DNA from: Halorussus amylolyticus
GTDB lineage: Archaea; Halobacteriota; Halobacteria; Halobacteriales; Haladaptataceae
Direction: 5' to 3'
NCBI RefSeq assembly: GCF_004143485.2
Contig: NZ_RXOB02000022.1
Location: 62,001 to 126,000, forward strand
Length of the DNA: 64,000 nucleotides
Of the stretch, positions 12,559 through 18,820 are shown in pieces; within the stretch, counting starts at the first letter, position 1, and the number at the start of each line of letters is the position of its first letter. The translations under genes and the position numbers were made by a program. The notes below the pieces were generated by a model, which saw only the letters and a program-made list of their open reading frames with translations, was not told the origin of the DNA and ran no database searches.

Positions 12559-14457
12559 CTAGTAGCTACGGACTTTCGGCTCGTAGGTCTTCTCCTCGCC
12601 GTCGAGGATGACCGGCTTGTAGTAGAGGTCGGGCGTGCCGTCGTCCCACGCGAGCATCGTGTGCTTGAGCCACTCGTCGTCCTTGCGCTCCTGGTGTTCC
12701 TGTCGCCAGTGCGCGCCGCGGAACTCGTCGCGCGCGAGTGCACCGAGCGTGATGGCCTCCGCGAGGTCGATGAGGTTCTGCATCTCGATGGTGTGGATGA
12801 GGTCGGTGTTGAACGTCCGCGAGGGGTCGTCCACGTACACGTCTTGGTACGCTTCCCGAACCTCCCGGATGTCTTCGAGCGCCTGTTTCAGGCCCTCCTC
12901 GTTCCGGAAGACGTTGACGTTCTGGGTCATCGACTTCTGGAGCTTCTCGCGGAGTTCGGCCTGCTGGATGCCCTCGTCTTTCTCGATGAGGTATTCGACG
13001 CGGGTGCGCTCGTTCTCGACTGCGCGCCGGACCACATCGTCGGCGGACGCGACAGCGGTTTCTCCGCCGTCGGACCGCGGGTCCGACGAGACTCGCGAAC
13101 CATCGGTTCGCTCACCACCGTCGGCGACCGCACTTTCGTCCTCGCCGCCGTCCGCGACTGCGCCCGGTTCGACCGGCGTGTCGAGGTTGTCCTCGGTCTC
13201 GAACTCGTCGGCCTTCCCGGTCGCGATTTCGGGTTCGCCGAGGTCGGTGCCCGCGGCGTGGCGGCCCGCGCGCGCGCCGAACACGATGAGTTCGGGGAGC
13301 GCGTTGCCGCCGAGTCGGTTCGACCCGTGGACCGAGACACAGGCGCACTCGCCCGCGGCGTACAGGCCGTCGATGCAGGTCTGACCGTGTTCGTTGGTCT
13401 CGACCCCGCCCATCGCGTAGTGCTGGCCGGGCTTGACCGGCATCGGCTCTTCGAGGCCGTCGACGCCCTCGAAGTCGCGCGCGAGGTGGAGGATGTTTTC
13501 GAGGCGGTCGGTGATGCGCTCCTCGCCGAGGTGGCGCATGTCGAGGTAGACGTACTCGTCGTCCACGCCTCGGCCCTCGTTGATTTCGGTGAGTTCGGCG
13601 CGCGAAACCACGTCGCGCGAGGCGAGTTCCCCGGCGTTGTTCGCGTAGCCGTACTCGAACATGAAGCGTTCTCCCTCGGCGTTGTAGAGGATACCGCCCT
13701 CTCCGCGCACGCCCTCCGAAATCAGGACCCCCGTGGAGGGGAGCGTGGTCGGGTGGAACTGGATGAACTCCATGTCTTCGAGCGGCGCGCCCGCCCGATA
13801 CGCCATCGCCGCGCCGTCGCCGGTGTTGGCGACCGCGTTGGTGGTGTGGTCGTACACCTGCCCGAGACCGCCGGTCGCGAGGATGACGCCGTTTCGCGCC
13901 TTGAACCCCTCTATCTGACCGGTCTTGATGTCGTAGGCGACCACGCCGTGACACTGCCGGTCGCTCGGGTCGTCCTCGTCGGTGACCGCGAGACGGCTGA
14001 CGTACCACTCGTCGTACACCTGAATCCCGCGCTTGACGACCTGCTCGTACATCGTGTGGAGCAGGTGGTGGCCGGTCTCGGCCCCGGCGTAGGTGGTTCG
14101 GGGGAACGAGAGGCCGCCGAACGGTCGCTGAGAGACGCGGCCGTCGTCCTCGCGCGAGAACGGCATCCCCCAGTGTTCGAGTTGGACGGTCTCTCCGGGA
14201 CTGTCCTGGGCCAGCGTCTCGATTGCCGGGGCGTCGCCGAGGTAGTCCGACCCCTTCATCGTGTCGTAGGCGTGGAGGTCCCACGAGTCGCCGTCGCGAA
14301 TCGCGGCGTTGATGCCGCCCTCGGCCGCGCCCGTGTGACTTCGGACCGGGTGAAGCTTCGTTACGATGGCAACGTCGGCACCCTCCTCGTGGGCCGCGAT
14401 GGCCGCTCGGAGTCCGGCACCGCCGCCGCCGATGACTAAAACGTCGTGTTCGTGCAT
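12559..14457 (-). CDS. sdhA: succinate dehydrogenase flavoprotein subunit
   Basis: The 632-residue subunit oxidises succinate to fumarate at the membrane. The dinucleotide motif GGGGAGLRAA lies at residues 10-19, the FAD-attachment segment SHTGAAEGG has its His at 41, and the catalytic-region motifs FHPTTL and EGVRGEGG are present. It is longer than the usual 590-610 residues because of an Asp/Gly/Glu/Ser-rich insertion at about residues 430-490 (ADGGEDE repeats), probably a surface loop adapted to high salt. It is the last gene of the sdhC-D-B-A operon, ten bp after sdhB. Confidence 0.95.
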   Translation of the reverse strand: MHEHDVLVIGGGGAGLRAAIAAHEEGADVAIVTKLHPVRSHTGAAEGGINAAIRDGDSWDLHAYDTMKGSDYLGDAPAIETLAQDSPGETVQLEHWGMPFSREDDGRVSQRPFGGLSFPRTTYAGAETGHHLLHTMYEQVVKRGIQVYDEWYVSRLAVTDEDDPSDRQCHGVVAYDIKTGQIEGFKARNGVILATGGLGQVYDHTTNAVANTGDGAAMAYRAGAPLEDMEFIQFHPTTLPSTGVLISEGVRGEGGILYNAEGERFMFEYGYANNAGELASRDVVSRAELTEINEGRGVDDEYVYLDMRHLGEERITDRLENILHLARDFEGVDGLEEPMPVKPGQHYAMGGVETNEHGQTCIDGLYAAGECACVSVHGSNRLGGNALPELIVFGARAGRHAAGTDLGEPEIATGKADEFETEDNLDTPVEPGAVADGGEDESAVADGGERTDGSRVSSDPRSDGGETAVASADDVVRRAVENERTRVEYLIEKDEGIQQAELREKLQKSMTQNVNVFRNEEGLKQALEDIREVREAYQDVYVDDPSRTFNTDLIHTIEMQNLIDLAEAITLGALARDEFRGAHWRQEHQERKDDEWLKHTMLAWDDGTPDLYYKPVILDGEEKTYEPKVRSY

Positions 14458-14467
14458 AGTTGAATTG

Positions 14468-15352
14468 TTACCAGAATTTGAGGTTCTGTTTGACCGCTTC
14501 GCGCTTGAGTTCCTGAATGTGCTCGGTCAGCGGGATGTCCTTCGGACAGACGTTCGTACAGGAGAACTGGGTCTGGCACCGCCAGACGCCGTGTTCCTGG
14601 TCCATGATGTTGAGCCGATGCTGCTTCAAGTCGTCGCCCTCGCGGTCGTCCATCGCGAAGCGATACGCTTTGTTGATGGCCGCCGGGCCGAGGTACTCGT
14701 TGTCGCCCGCCGCGATGTTGCACGACGACATGCACGCGCCACACCAGATACACCGCGTGGACATCTTGATTTTCTCGCGGTTCTCCCGCGACTGGCGCTG
14801 TTCTTCGAGGTCGCCGCTCGGCAGGTCATCCTCCTGGAAGAACGGCTCGACCGCGTGCATCTGGTCGTAGAAGTGCTCCATGTCCACGACGAGGTCCTTC
14901 ACCACGTCCTGATGGGGGAGCGGTTCGACCCGAATCGGGGCTTCGAGGTCCGAGATCTGGGTCTGACACCCGAGTCGCTGGCGGCCGTTGACGAAGAACG
15001 CGTCCGACCCGCACACCGCCTGCCGACACGAGTGGCGGAACGTCAGCGTGGTGTCGTAGTGGTCCCGGGCGTAGATGAGCGCGTCGAGGACGGTCATCCC
15101 CTTCTCGCGGGGGACGTAGAAGTCGTCGAATCGCGGCTCCATCTTGCCTTCGACCTCGGGGTCGTAGCGGAACACCTTGAGTCGGAAGGTGTCGTCGTCC
15201 GCGCGCCCGACCGGTTCGGACCCGACGGCCTGGTCGCTGGCGGTTCGCTTCTCTGCGCGTCGCCGGTCGCCGGGCGATTGGCGCTCGGCGGGAGCGGTCT
15301 CTGCCTCTGTCTCGGTCGGCTCGTCTGCTTCCTCTTGGATTTGCGTACTCAT
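14468..15352 (-). CDS. sdhB: succinate dehydrogenase iron-sulfur subunit
   Basis: The 294-residue subunit carries electrons from flavin to quinone through three clusters. The 2Fe-2S site is SCRQAVCGSD with a later Cys in LGCQTQ; the third ligand is Asp instead of Cys, as in several known SdhB proteins. The 4Fe-4S/3Fe-4S ligands are in CIWCGACMSSC and CQTQFSCTNVCPKD. The first 45 residues are a haloarchaeal acidic Glu/Thr/Arg-rich extension absent from bacterial homologues. It lies between sdhD (one bp gap) and sdhA. Confidence 0.95.
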   Translation of the reverse strand: MSTQIQEEADEPTETEAETAPAERQSPGDRRRAEKRTASDQAVGSEPVGRADDDTFRLKVFRYDPEVEGKMEPRFDDFYVPREKGMTVLDALIYARDHYDTTLTFRHSCRQAVCGSDAFFVNGRQRLGCQTQISDLEAPIRVEPLPHQDVVKDLVVDMEHFYDQMHAVEPFFQEDDLPSGDLEEQRQSRENREKIKMSTRCIWCGACMSSCNIAAGDNEYLGPAAINKAYRFAMDDREGDDLKQHRLNIMDQEHGVWRCQTQFSCTNVCPKDIPLTEHIQELKREAVKQNLKFW

Positions 15353-15353
15353 G

Positions 15354-15719
15354 TTACATCACTCCGGACATCACGAGCGCGACGTAGGTCCCCTGCGCCG
15401 CGAGCGCGAGCGCCGCGACGGCCAGCACGACCTGTACGACGCGCTTTTTCGTGCCGGTGAGTCCCTGATTCAACAGCGCGGCGTAGACGCCGTTGACGCC
15501 GTGGAACGTCGCGGTCAGCAGGAACAGCACCATCGTCAGCAGGTAGCCCCACTCCTCCATCCGCGCGGTGGTCTGAGCGAACGTCACTTCGGAGGCGTGG
15601 TTGACGAAGTGGAGCAGGAAGAAGTGGAACGCGAGCACCACCACGAGGAACGCCGCCGTGACTCGCTGGAGGAACCACGGAAGGCTCCCGCTACTGAACG
15701 AGGAGTAGCGTTCGGCCAT
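15354..15719 (-). CDS. sdhD: succinate dehydrogenase membrane anchor subunit
   Basis: A 121-residue protein with three transmembrane helices, the first containing VLAFHFFLLHFVNH, whose His residues are candidate haem ligands. It anchors the SdhAB dimer with SdhC and helps form the quinone site. Its start directly abuts the sdhC stop and its end is one bp from the sdhB start, so the four genes form one transcript. Confidence 0.9.
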   Translation of the reverse strand: MAERYSSFSSGSLPWFLQRVTAAFLVVVLAFHFFLLHFVNHASEVTFAQTTARMEEWGYLLTMVLFLLTATFHGVNGVYAALLNQGLTGTKKRVVQVVLAVAALALAAQGTYVALVMSGVM

Positions 15720-16112
15720 TTAAAACGCCCCCTCCAGGAACGTCGGAATCGACGCTAACACGATGACGGCGGTCACGACGAGCGATGCGTAGAAGCTCTT
15801 GTCCTGGGCTTCGAGTCCGACGCCGAGGTCCACGAACAGCAGGCGGACCCCGTTCAGGATGTGGAAGACGGCGACCGCGAGCAGTCCGACTTCCATGACG
15901 CGGACGAGAAGCAGGCTTTCGAGCCCCTGAAGCGTGTTGGTGTAGGCGTTGGCACCGGAGAGCGCGGTACTCAGCACGGCGATGTGGGTGAACAGATAGC
16001 CGATGAGTACCCACCCGGTGAATTTGTGAAGTATCCAGGCCCACATCCCGGCCGTGAACTCCCGCCACCGGCCGAAATCTTCGATGAGGCCCCGATTGTA
16101 CGATTGACTCAT
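15720..16112 (-). CDS. sdhC: succinate dehydrogenase cytochrome b556 subunit
   Basis: A 130-residue membrane protein with three helices. The segment [20 protein letters not shown] is diagnostic of SdhC and supplies a haem-ligand His. ATG at 16112 (MSQSYNRG) is preferred over one 33 bases upstream, since the family starts with a short Asn/Arg-rich leader before the first helix. It is the first gene of the operon. The 140 bp upstream contain CTTCTATTTG on the minus strand, a possible TATA element. Confidence 0.9.
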
Positions 16113-16252
16113 ACTTGTCCGTTCGGGAAGTTGGACCGTGGGCAAATAGAAGTTACGAGAAACGCGCCGCCTCGATACGTTGGAAATCCGCGAGGACGAC
16201 GCGCGATTTCGGCCGCCGCCGTCGCGTCCCTCCCAATATCACGTACTCGACA

Positions 16253-17317
16253 CTACCGCGTCTCGGGCGGCGGCGACACGTCGCCGTCGCCCTCCCGGTC
16301 GTTTCTCGCCCGGTCGCGTTTCAGGGCGCGTCGGGTGTCGGCCGCGAGTTCGACCATGTGACACAGCGGATTCCCCGGATACACGACCGGATTTTCGAGG
16401 ACGCCGACGAGCAGTCCCGTGAAGGGCGCGCGAACGCGCTCGCTGTCGGTCTTGAACGGGTTCGTGATGGTGCAGATGACGTCACCCTCGTAGACGAGCG
16501 ACCCGCGGTCGTGGTGCATCTCCACGATGCCGCCCACGTCGGCCCGGAGCCACGTCTTCTCCTTGTCGTCGTCGATGATGGTGCGCCACCCCGGCCACTT
16601 GACCGCGTCGGTGCGGTGGACGCCGAACTCCGCGAGGACGCTCTCGACGCCTTCGAGGCCCCGGTCGATGAACTCGCGTTGGAAGCGGTGGGCCTCGCCC
16701 ATCTCGATGGTGATGGTCGGCGTCCCGTACTCGCTGGCTTCCCGGCGGAGCGCGCCGGTCGGCCCCTCCGAGGAGATGATGACGTTCGACCCGAACGCCT
16801 TGGCGACTCGCGCGACTTCGGGGTCGTTCATGTCCGCGCGAGCGTGGAGCATGTTCGTTCGCCCGCGCGTGGAGGTGTGAAAGTCGAGGCCCACGTCGCA
16901 CGGGGCGACGAAGTTCCGGAATATCTGGTGGGCCATTCGCTTCGCGCTGGTCGAGTCGGGACTCCCCGGGAACGACCGATTCAGGTCGCGGTCGTAGATG
17001 GGGAGGTAGCGCTCCTGGGCGATGAAGCCCGGGACGTTCAGCACGGGGAGACAGACCAGCGTGCCACAGAGGTCGTCGTGGTTCCACTCGTGGGCGACTT
17101 CCCGAACGACCTCGATGCCGTTGAGTTCGTCGCCGTGGGCCGCCGCCGAGAGGAACACGGTAGGTCCCGGTTCGGCACCGTTGACGATGGTGACGGGAAT
17201 GCGAACCGGGTCGCCGAGATACGTCTCGCTGATGCCGTACCGAATGTTCTGCGTCTCGCCCGGTTTGACGATGCCGCCGTTGTAGGTGAATGCGTCGTCG
17301 TCGTCCGACCCGGTCAT
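16253..17317 (-). CDS. succinylglutamate desuccinylase / aspartoacylase family zinc hydrolase
   Basis: The 354-residue protein belongs to the M14-like AstE/AspA family. Zinc ligands are H61 and E64 in AAHGDELNG and H147 in LDFHTS; the motif DLNRSFPG is also typical. A C-terminal domain (about 250-330, VRAPFTGLLVGVLENPVVYPG) resembles the lipoyl-like barrel of this family. Known members hydrolyse N-acyl bonds of glutamate or aspartate. No arginine-succinylation genes are nearby. Instead it is divergent from the RimK/RimB fusion, which suggests a substrate connected to glutamylation. A TATA-like TTATATA lies 22-29 bp before the ATG, so the transcript is probably leaderless. Confidence 0.85.
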   Translation of the reverse strand: MTGSDDDDAFTYNGGIVKPGETQNIRYGISETYLGDPVRIPVTIVNGAEPGPTVFLSAAAHGDELNGIEVVREVAHEWNHDDLCGTLVCLPVLNVPGFIAQERYLPIYDRDLNRSFPGSPDSTSAKRMAHQIFRNFVAPCDVGLDFHTSTRGRTNMLHARADMNDPEVARVAKAFGSNVIISSEGPTGALRREASEYGTPTITIEMGEAHRFQREFIDRGLEGVESVLAEFGVHRTDAVKWPGWRTIIDDDKEKTWLRADVGGIVEMHHDRGSLVYEGDVICTITNPFKTDSERVRAPFTGLLVGVLENPVVYPGNPLCHMVELAADTRRALKRDRARNDREGDGDVSPPPETR

Positions 17318-17338
17318 ATCACCCTCTCGGACCGCGCC

Positions 17339-17348
17339 GTATATAACA
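17339..17348 (-). promoter_or_regulatory. TATA-like element of the aspartoacylase-family gene
   Basis: On the minus strand TGTTATATAC is centred about 26 bp before the ATG at 17317, the spacing expected for a leaderless haloarchaeal transcript. Confidence 0.5.
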
Positions 17349-17439
17349 GATTGGAACTCGAAAAGTCGTCGGCGCGACCCGGCCGCCGCCGGAGAGATGT
17401 GATTCGACACCGATTCACACCGAACGTTCGATACCCTCC

Positions 17440-17447
17440 TTTTTAAG
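17440..17447 (+). promoter_or_regulatory. TATA-like element of the RimK/RimB fusion gene
   Basis: TTTTTAAG lies 27-34 bp before the ATG at 17474. A second AT-rich stretch, ATAATATATG, is closer (17458-17467). Confidence 0.5.
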
Positions 17448-17473
17448 ATGGGCCGCATAATATATGTACACCA

Positions 17474-18820
17474 ATGAGTGACGACGGTTCTGGCGTGCGC
17501 GTGGGTGTGCTGAGTCTACACAACAGTAAGGAAACCAAGGCGATTCTGAACGCAATCGAAGACCTCGGTCACGACCCCCACTGGCTTCGTGAAGAGAACA
17601 CCGCGGTCCGAATCGAGGACGGGACCGTCCACCTCGAACCCGAAATCGACGTGGTGGCGAACCGACTCCTGCTGTCGAACACCGAACAGCCCTCCGAGGC
17701 GCTCGGACTCGCGAAAATCTACGATTCGCTGGTCCCGGTCCTCAACGGACCGAGTTCGGTGATGACCGCGATTCACAAATTCTCGACCGCGACCGCACTG
17801 AGCGACGCCGGAATCCCGGTGCCCGACGCGCTCCTCGCGCTGTCGAACGACCGCCTCAACGACGGCCGGGCCGACTTCGGCGAGGAGGCCGTCTACAAGA
17901 CCGCCATCGGCACCCACGGCGGCGGCACGTGGAAGGTCGGGCCGGACGAACTCGTGAACCCCCGCGTCGGCGACCGGCAGGCGTTCCTGCAGGAACTCAT
18001 CGAGCGCGACGAGGGCGAACACCGCGACCTTCGCGTGTACGTGGTCGGCGACCGCATCGTCGGCGCGATGAACCGCTACGCGCCCGACAACGACTGGCGG
18101 ACCAACGTCGCGCTCGGCGGCGCGGTCGAGGACGCGACCGATAGACTCCCGAAGGAGGTCGCCGAAATCGCGCGCGACGCCACCGAAACCATCGGTCTCG
18201 ACTGCGCGGGCGTGGACCTCATCGAGGGTCACGACGGCTGGCACGTCCTCGAAGTCAACCCCACGGCGGGGTTCAAGGGGCTGTTCAAGGCCACCGGCCG
18301 GAGCGCCGCACCCTACATCGCCCAGCTCGCCATCGAGCGCGGCGGCGGTACCGTGGACGAGCGCCGGGTCGAAGACCTGAGCGCGACCCTCGACGACTCG
18401 GTGCCCGCGTGCAAGCCCATCCCCAGAGAGACCGCGCCGGGCGAACCGGTCGTCATCGGCTACACCGAGGAGGTCGTCCTGAGCGGCACGAGCGGGTCGG
18501 AAACCGTCCTCGCCAAGTCCGACACCGGCGCGACCCGGACGAGCATCGACACCAAGCTCGCGGCCAAAATCGGCGCGGGACCCATCAAGTCCATCGCTCG
18601 CGTCAAGTCCGGCTCCAGCAAGTCGAGTCGGTCCCGGCCGGTCGTGGACGTGGTGGTCGGCGTCGGCGGCAATCGGCACACCGTGACCGCGAGCATCGAG
18701 GACCGGGGCCACATGGACTACCCGGTCCTGCTCGGCCGCGACATTTTGAAACACTACCAAGTGAACGTCCAGCGGCGCGTGGACCGCGACGAGAGCGAGA
18801 CCGAAGAAGAAGAGGAGTGA
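17474..18820 (+). CDS. RimK-type glutamate ligase fused to RimB-like retropepsin protease
   Basis: The 448-residue protein has two domains. Residues about 1-290 are a RimK-type ATP-grasp ligase: ATP-binding YKTAIGTHGGGTW (141-153), Asp in GVDLIEG and EVNPTAGFKG (260-269). Residues about 310-435 are a RimB/DUF785-type aspartic protease domain with the retropepsin motif KSDTGATRTSID (D350) and the closing motif PVLLGRDIL. RimK adds glutamates to the C-terminus of a protein (ribosomal protein S6 in bacteria). In gammaproteobacteria RimB is a separate protease encoded with RimK. Here they are fused and divergent from an acyl-glutamate hydrolase family gene. The archaeal target is unknown. Confidence 0.88.
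   Translation: MSDDGSGVRVGVLSLHNSKETKAILNAIEDLGHDPHWLREENTAVRIEDGTVHLEPEIDVVANRLLLSNTEQPSEALGLAKIYDSLVPVLNGPSSVMTAIHKFSTATALSDAGIPVPDALLALSNDRLNDGRADFGEEAVYKTAIGTHGGGTWKVGPDELVNPRVGDRQAFLQELIERDEGEHRDLRVYVVGDRIVGAMNRYAPDNDWRTNVALGGAVEDATDRLPKEVAEIARDATETIGLDCAGVDLIEGHDGWHVLEVNPTAGFKGLFKATGRSAAPYIAQLAIERGGGTVDERRVEDLSATLDDSVPACKPIPRETAPGEPVVIGYTEEVVLSGTSGSETVLAKSDTGATRTSIDTKLAAKIGAGPIKSIARVKSGSSKSSRSRPVVDVVVGVGGNRHTVTASIEDRGHMDYPVLLGRDILKHYQVNVQRRVDRDESETEEEEE

Follow-up and report, generated by a model that had tools for sequence, protein, structure and literature searches.

A haloarchaeal RimK-RimB fusion and its divergent AstE-like hydrolase: a candidate poly-alpha-glutamate module with an equivalent operon in bacteria and other archaea

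What does a glutamate ligase of the RimK type do when it carries a RimB-type retropepsin on the same polypeptide and stands back to back with a zinc hydrolase? This arrangement occurs in Halorussus amylolyticus, within the 64,000-nucleotide stretch of DNA analyzed here (the window). In bacteria, glutamate is added by RimK; RimB both cleaves polyglutamate and stimulates the ligase (PMC11957791). A preliminary description of the window had joined both activities in one protein, and Pfam profiles for the ligase (PF08443) and the retropepsin (PF05618) indeed match a single reading frame at 17474..18820 on the forward strand. The encoded protein has 448 residues, arranged as an N-terminal pre-ATP-grasp domain, a RimK ATP-grasp ligase, a C-terminal retropepsin, and a genome-encoded glutamate tail. 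The divergent partner (16253..17317, reverse strand) encodes 354 residues. Translation most probably begins at the ATG at 17317 and not at position 17458, the start given in the list of open reading frames, since the shorter form fits the numbering of its metal ligands, agrees with the starts of same-genus orthologues, and places a TATA-like box about 25 nt upstream. The intergenic region of 156 bp (17318..17473), aligned between the window and five relatives, contains two such boxes, one for the hydrolase (17340-17346) and one for the fusion (17440-17447), each approximately 25-30 nt from the ATG. Directly downstream of the hydrolase lies sdhCDBA (12559..16145, reverse strand), which is placed outside the proposed system. 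The same-strand order from 12559 to 17317 would permit co-transcription of hydrolase and sdhCDBA.

The ligase half of the fusion belongs to the RimK family. Residues 101-282 (17774..18319, forward strand) match PF08443 with 80.2 bits against a cut-off of 21 (E 1.9e-22), and TIGR00768 gives 149 bits against a cut-off of 143.4. The ATP-grasp metal and ATP residues D248, E260, and N262 are invariant in 35 sequences, and the predicted structure of this half resembles RimK and LysX structures. Five of the seven polyglutamate contacts of RimK (S7, R64, S68, R189, and N262) are kept as S14, R64, S68, R187, and N262 of the fusion, and the other two are changed (R8 to L15 and S14 to E20). Identity to bacterial RimK reaches only 27-33%, and the equivalog model for the S6 ligase, that is, RimK proper, scores 65.6 bits against a required 331. 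These two values and the two changed contacts count against the functional proposal made below, as does the low confidence of the modeled retropepsin.

The retropepsin half occupies about residues 325-436 (18446..18781, forward strand). It matches PF05618 at residues 370-436 (38.4 bits, cut-off 27) and PF13650 at residues 342-423. The catalytic aspartate of the DTGA motif is residue 350 (codon 18521-18523, forward strand), as described earlier, and is kept in 34 of 35 sequences. In RloA of Pseudomonas aeruginosa, polyglutamate is bound by K46, R114, and R137, and D48 is catalytic (PMC12239564). Alignment to the structures 9g58, 9g59, and 2pma places K348, R388, R411, and D350 of the fusion at these four positions, and all four are invariant across 22 fusion orthologues. 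The retropepsin part of the fusion model has a pLDDT of about 30.

The divergent partner is an AstE/AspA-type zinc hydrolase (PF24827, 170.8 bits against a cut-off of 25, E 3.3e-50). Its metal site consists of H61 (17135-17137), E64 (17126-17128), and H147 (16877-16879), all on the reverse strand and all as first proposed. The accompanying suggestion of kinship to cytosolic carboxypeptidases did not hold, as PF24827 was the only profile matched and carboxypeptidases are weak fold matches with a TM-score of about 0.4. The metal ligands, the NR motif (N113, R114), and the catalytic E205 are invariant and are common to DoeB and other relatives. More distinctive is a second set of nine residues, Y104, R110, R153, N155, R160, R191, E208, R211, and R258. 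This signature is complete in 26 of 27 haloarchaeal and RimK-linked hydrolases, archaeal and bacterial alike, and DoeB lacks it. Only L176 departs from it, a plasmid-borne copy that has no RimK neighbor. The extra arginines would suit a highly anionic substrate. In a phylogenetic tree, the haloarchaeal hydrolases group with the RimK-linked ones at a support of 92/83, a placement to be read with caution for long branches. The nearest non-haloarchaeal relatives in plasmid records, from Salinivibrio and Vibrio, share 37-38% identity, compared with about 31% or less for DoeB. The group is currently annotated only as succinylglutamate desuccinylase-like protein.

Conservation of the gene pair, one of the checks that the preliminary description had called for, was surveyed in 194 Halobacteria genomes, calling the fusion at E below 1e-40 and a close hydrolase orthologue at E below 1e-140. 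The fusion is present in 176 genomes, and every one of these also has the hydrolase orthologue; no case of a fusion without hydrolase occurs among the 194. Both are missing from 15 of the 18 fusion-less genomes, which contain only a distant hydrolase paralogue (E 1e-33 to 1e-42). Fisher's test gives 9e-20 for this co-occurrence, with phylogeny ignored. The neighborhood is conserved as well. Among 136 genomes with both positions listed, 84 have divergent genes separated by 94-283 bp (median 143), 44 have divergent genes with an insert of 1-4.7 kb, and in the remaining eight the genes lie apart or are otherwise arranged. The RimB-type domain is also found in Haloferax volcanii, which is genetically tractable. 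Divergent fusion copies occur on large haloarchaeal plasmids (L066-L072); several of these adjoin universal stress proteins, and some have no hydrolase neighbor.

The pair is not only kept together but also lost together. At least five double losses fall inside genera (g5, g9, g23, g26, and g30) whose other members retain both genes. In family f4 (L160, L161, L168, L170, and L175), a GNAT-DUF5816 gene and a MatE/polysaccharide-export-type gene normally lie between the two. One genome, G052, lacks the hydrolase and the fusion, and the two intervening genes and sdhCDBA are still present, which constitutes a joint loss of non-adjacent genes. Since this genome keeps both intervening genes, they were rejected as extra components. 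Three further genomes hold remnants: a 71-residue hydrolase piece with no fusion in G114, and an intact hydrolase beside a fusion remnant of 65 residues in G110 and of 33 residues in G183. In these remnants, few as they are, the fusion decays first and the hydrolase later, the order to be expected of a hydrolase that clears the fusion product. A DUF6517 gene lies between the hydrolase and sdhC in fusion-less genomes of genus g32 (L158, 6173-6916; L159, 5990-6634).

The same activities are also encountered together outside Halobacteria. In Salinivibrio, the hydrolase is the third gene of a tight rimB-rimK-hydrolase operon, and the haloarchaeal enzyme shares 38% identity with the hydrolase of the bacterial operon. 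Among the best 80 hydrolase loci in species genomes, rimK adjoins the hydrolase in 56, and rimB together with rimK in 51. Where the hydrolase stands alone, rimK and rimB were located elsewhere in all 17 genomes tested, both genes being common in such bacteria. A mechanosensitive channel gene was dismissed as a common neighbor, with 4 occurrences in 80 loci. On a conjugative plasmid of Vibrio nigripulchritudo (L231), the three genes stand in the order rimK-hydrolase-rimB, and a gene for such a channel follows them. Linkage was also measured in an even sample of 143 genomes of Gammaproteobacteria, the class to which the marine bacterium G398 belongs. An AstE-like gene is present in 41 of these, and RimK in 39 of the 41 compared with 21 of the other 102 (Fisher 2e-17). 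The rimK gene lies directly upstream of the AstE-like gene in 36 of the 41, and all three genes are clustered in 32. The three activities are genetically linked, with the hydrolase bearing the arginine signature.

In the same phylum, those RimB domains that were detected outside Halobacteria stand alone. In one archaeal family, f12, the whole operon is present in all four sampled genomes with strong RimB domains (L220, L221, L222, and L223); the operon is missing from seven other sampled genomes, in which PF05618 matches are weak. The f12 RimK is 73-77% identical to its gammaproteobacterial counterpart, suggesting that the operon recently crossed between domains as a whole. The recurrence of the same three activities in Halobacteria, many marine bacteria, and family f12 of the archaea makes them look like one widespread system.

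On this basis, the two haloarchaeal genes are read, with confidence a little above even, as a three-activity poly-alpha-glutamate module: synthesis by RimK, cleavage by RimB, and recycling by the AstE-like enzyme. The ATP-grasp half would use ATP to make alpha-linked glutamate chains, and the fused retropepsin half would cut these chains internally. The AstE-like zinc enzyme would then liberate free glutamate, working either on the oligoglutamates so released or on glutamates at the C-terminal end of the chain, much as CphZ does on cyanophycin dipeptides. Glutamate as the amino acid and oligoglutamate as the hydrolase substrate are putative assignments. The chain itself would be either free or attached to the Glu-ending tail of the fusion, and not to a ribosomal protein. 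The preliminary description suggested that the two genes might add glutamates to, and remove them from, the C-terminus of a target protein. Addition and removal survive as the best reading, given the conserved pair and the equivalent operon in bacteria and archaea; the known RimK target, ribosomal protein S6, does not, for it is absent from the genome.

The alternative that fares best retains a protein target. A reversible modification switch would have the fusion glutamylate the C-terminus of an archaeal protein other than itself, and the retropepsin and the AstE-like enzyme remove the addition. Bacterial RimK modifies S6 in this manner and RimB reverses the reaction (PMC11957791), and the conserved pairing in Halobacteria would be expected of such a switch. 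However, a profile search for S6 (PF01250) in the window's own genome found none, and its absence rules out S6 as the target here. Some bacteria with the same operon also have an S6 whose last residue is other than glutamate (the terminal residue is Glu in 14 of 21 S6 sequences read from operon-bearing bacteria), and no conserved neighbor points to another target. Such a switch is therefore unlikely, if still worth keeping in mind.

Two further readings concern the C-terminal tail of the fusion, which in the window is EEEEE (residues 444-448, 18803..18817, forward strand). Among 43 distinct fusion relatives, a terminal Glu is present in 41 and a terminal Glu-Glu in 33, although the tail otherwise varies in sequence and in length (6 to 24 residues). 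Shuffling letters within the tails in 5000 trials gave maxima of 25 Glu and 13 Glu-Glu ends (means 13.8 and 4.2), so that the observed values exceed every trial. Of 103 other haloarchaeal reading frames at the same loci, 21 have a terminal Glu and 8 a terminal Glu-Glu, and none of 26 hydrolases ends in Glu-Glu. Such a tail is missing from the RimK and RimB proteins of the bacterial operon. Operon-type RimK (L078, L091, L097, L129, L138, and L220-L223) mostly ends in a conserved basic TRGKG, opposite in charge to the haloarchaeal tail. Retention of the terminal Glu in nearly all relatives makes the fusion's own tail a candidate acceptor, and its role as a primer or self-acceptor is put forward as a hypothesis. 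RloA cleaved eight glutamates and not six (PMC12239564). Most encoded tails are shorter than the cleavable length, so a tail would survive unless extended.

The fuller of the two tail readings makes the fusion a self-priming poly-alpha-glutamate synthase, which would extend its own Glu-Glu terminus and cut the chain, leaving the pieces to the AstE-like enzyme for recycling. This elaboration of the module is improbable. If true, it would define a glutamate-polymer cycle analogous to that of cyanophycin, conserved in Halobacteria and encoded by an operon common to bacteria and other archaea. The narrower reading is self-modification, where the fusion lengthens its own tail, as a polyglutamate primer or an activity switch, and the retropepsin half trims it back. 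The terminal Glu counts and the tail-less bacterial enzymes speak for it. Against it, the counts come from related sequences and are not independent, and GAG/GAA repeat slippage or halophilic acidity could also enrich glutamate. Self-modification of this kind is accordingly regarded as doubtful.

The hydrolase might instead be an N-acyl amino acid deacylase that merely adjoins the fusion, releasing, for example, succinate beside succinate dehydrogenase. Since the gene borders sdhCDBA, some probability attaches to a succinate-related role. The sdhCDBA genes follow the hydrolase in most relatives examined, including those in which the fusion is no longer nearby, and the fold is closest to that of DoeB (model pLDDT 82; best PDB match 6twm, TM-score 0.69 by query and 0.75 by target). 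However, the equivalog scores lie far below their cut-offs, with 23.9 against 305.65 bits for AstE and 102 against 402.7 bits for DoeB, and DoeB lacks the arginine signature. A plain DoeB or AstE deacylase was rejected as first choice on these grounds. In addition, the gene follows rimK in bacteria, and in Halobacteria it is lost along with the fusion and not with sdh. Deacylation unconnected to the fusion is thus very unlikely. Least probable of all is a small-molecule glutamate adduct, such as an MptN- or CofF-type cofactor tail trimmed by the other domains: the MptN and LysX models (121.5 and 113.5 bits) do outscore the S6-ligase model, but every score for LysX of lysine biosynthesis or for the cofactor ligases MptN and CofF falls below its cut-off, RimB/RloA enzymes are polyglutamate-specific (PMC12239564), and bacterial operons pair the hydrolase with a typical RimK.

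Should the module reading prove correct, the Rim system would become a three-enzyme glutamate-chain cycle of both prokaryotic domains and not a two-enzyme bacterial ribosome modifier. It would also provide a first function for a gene pair that some nine tenths of the sampled Halobacteria retain. Moreover, because the genome encodes no S6, RimK-type ligases would have a role independent of it. The third, AstE-like enzyme has no function assigned in the literature examined. The RimB paper (PMC11957791) and two other Rim papers do not mention it, and the literature search found no paper on an operon of rimK and a desuccinylase/aspartoacylase gene; an earlier mention of the three-gene neighborhood may nonetheless exist.

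Several known systems share parts of this organization. DoeB (N-acetyl-L-2,4-diaminobutyrate deacetylase) provides the closest solved structures (6twm and 3na6) and has the same catalytic residues as the hydrolase. It differs in that the hydrolase scores far below the DoeB cut-off, the nine signature residues are missing in DoeB, and DoeB has a doeA gene context. RloABC of P. aeruginosa, composed of a retropepsin, an inactive transglutaminase, and an ATP-grasp protein, likewise places a polyglutamate-binding retropepsin beside an ATP-grasp protein (PMC12239564). Unlike the fusion, RloA is secreted and partnered with a membrane transglutaminase-like protein, and an AstE-like partner has not been described.

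Related in composition are RimABK (RimA-RimB-RimK of Pseudomonas) and the RimBK hybrid of Desulfotalea, in which a RimK ATP-grasp ligase and a RimB retropepsin likewise act together. As that bacterial hybrid is published (PMC11957791), a RimK-RimB fusion is not in itself new. Its order is opposite, however, with RimB preceding RimK in Desulfotalea and RimK preceding RimB in the haloarchaeal protein. The haloarchaeal system further departs from RimABK and RimBK in a host without S6, in its AstE-like partner, and in the encoded glutamate tail. The cyanophycin cycle of CphA, cyanophycinase, and CphZ offers a parallel in operation, combining an ATP-grasp polymerase, a polymer cutter, and a finishing hydrolase of the AstE/M14 fold (PMC10206079). 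It involves a different polymer and an unrelated cutting enzyme. Identity is only 14-15%, and the likeness is an analogy of working and not one of membership. CphZ is nevertheless among the fold matches of the hydrolase model, and members of its family also bear desuccinylase/aspartoacylase or M14 annotations (PMC10206079). By analogy, CphZ sets a precedent for an AstE fold that could serve as the recycling enzyme of a polymer cycle.
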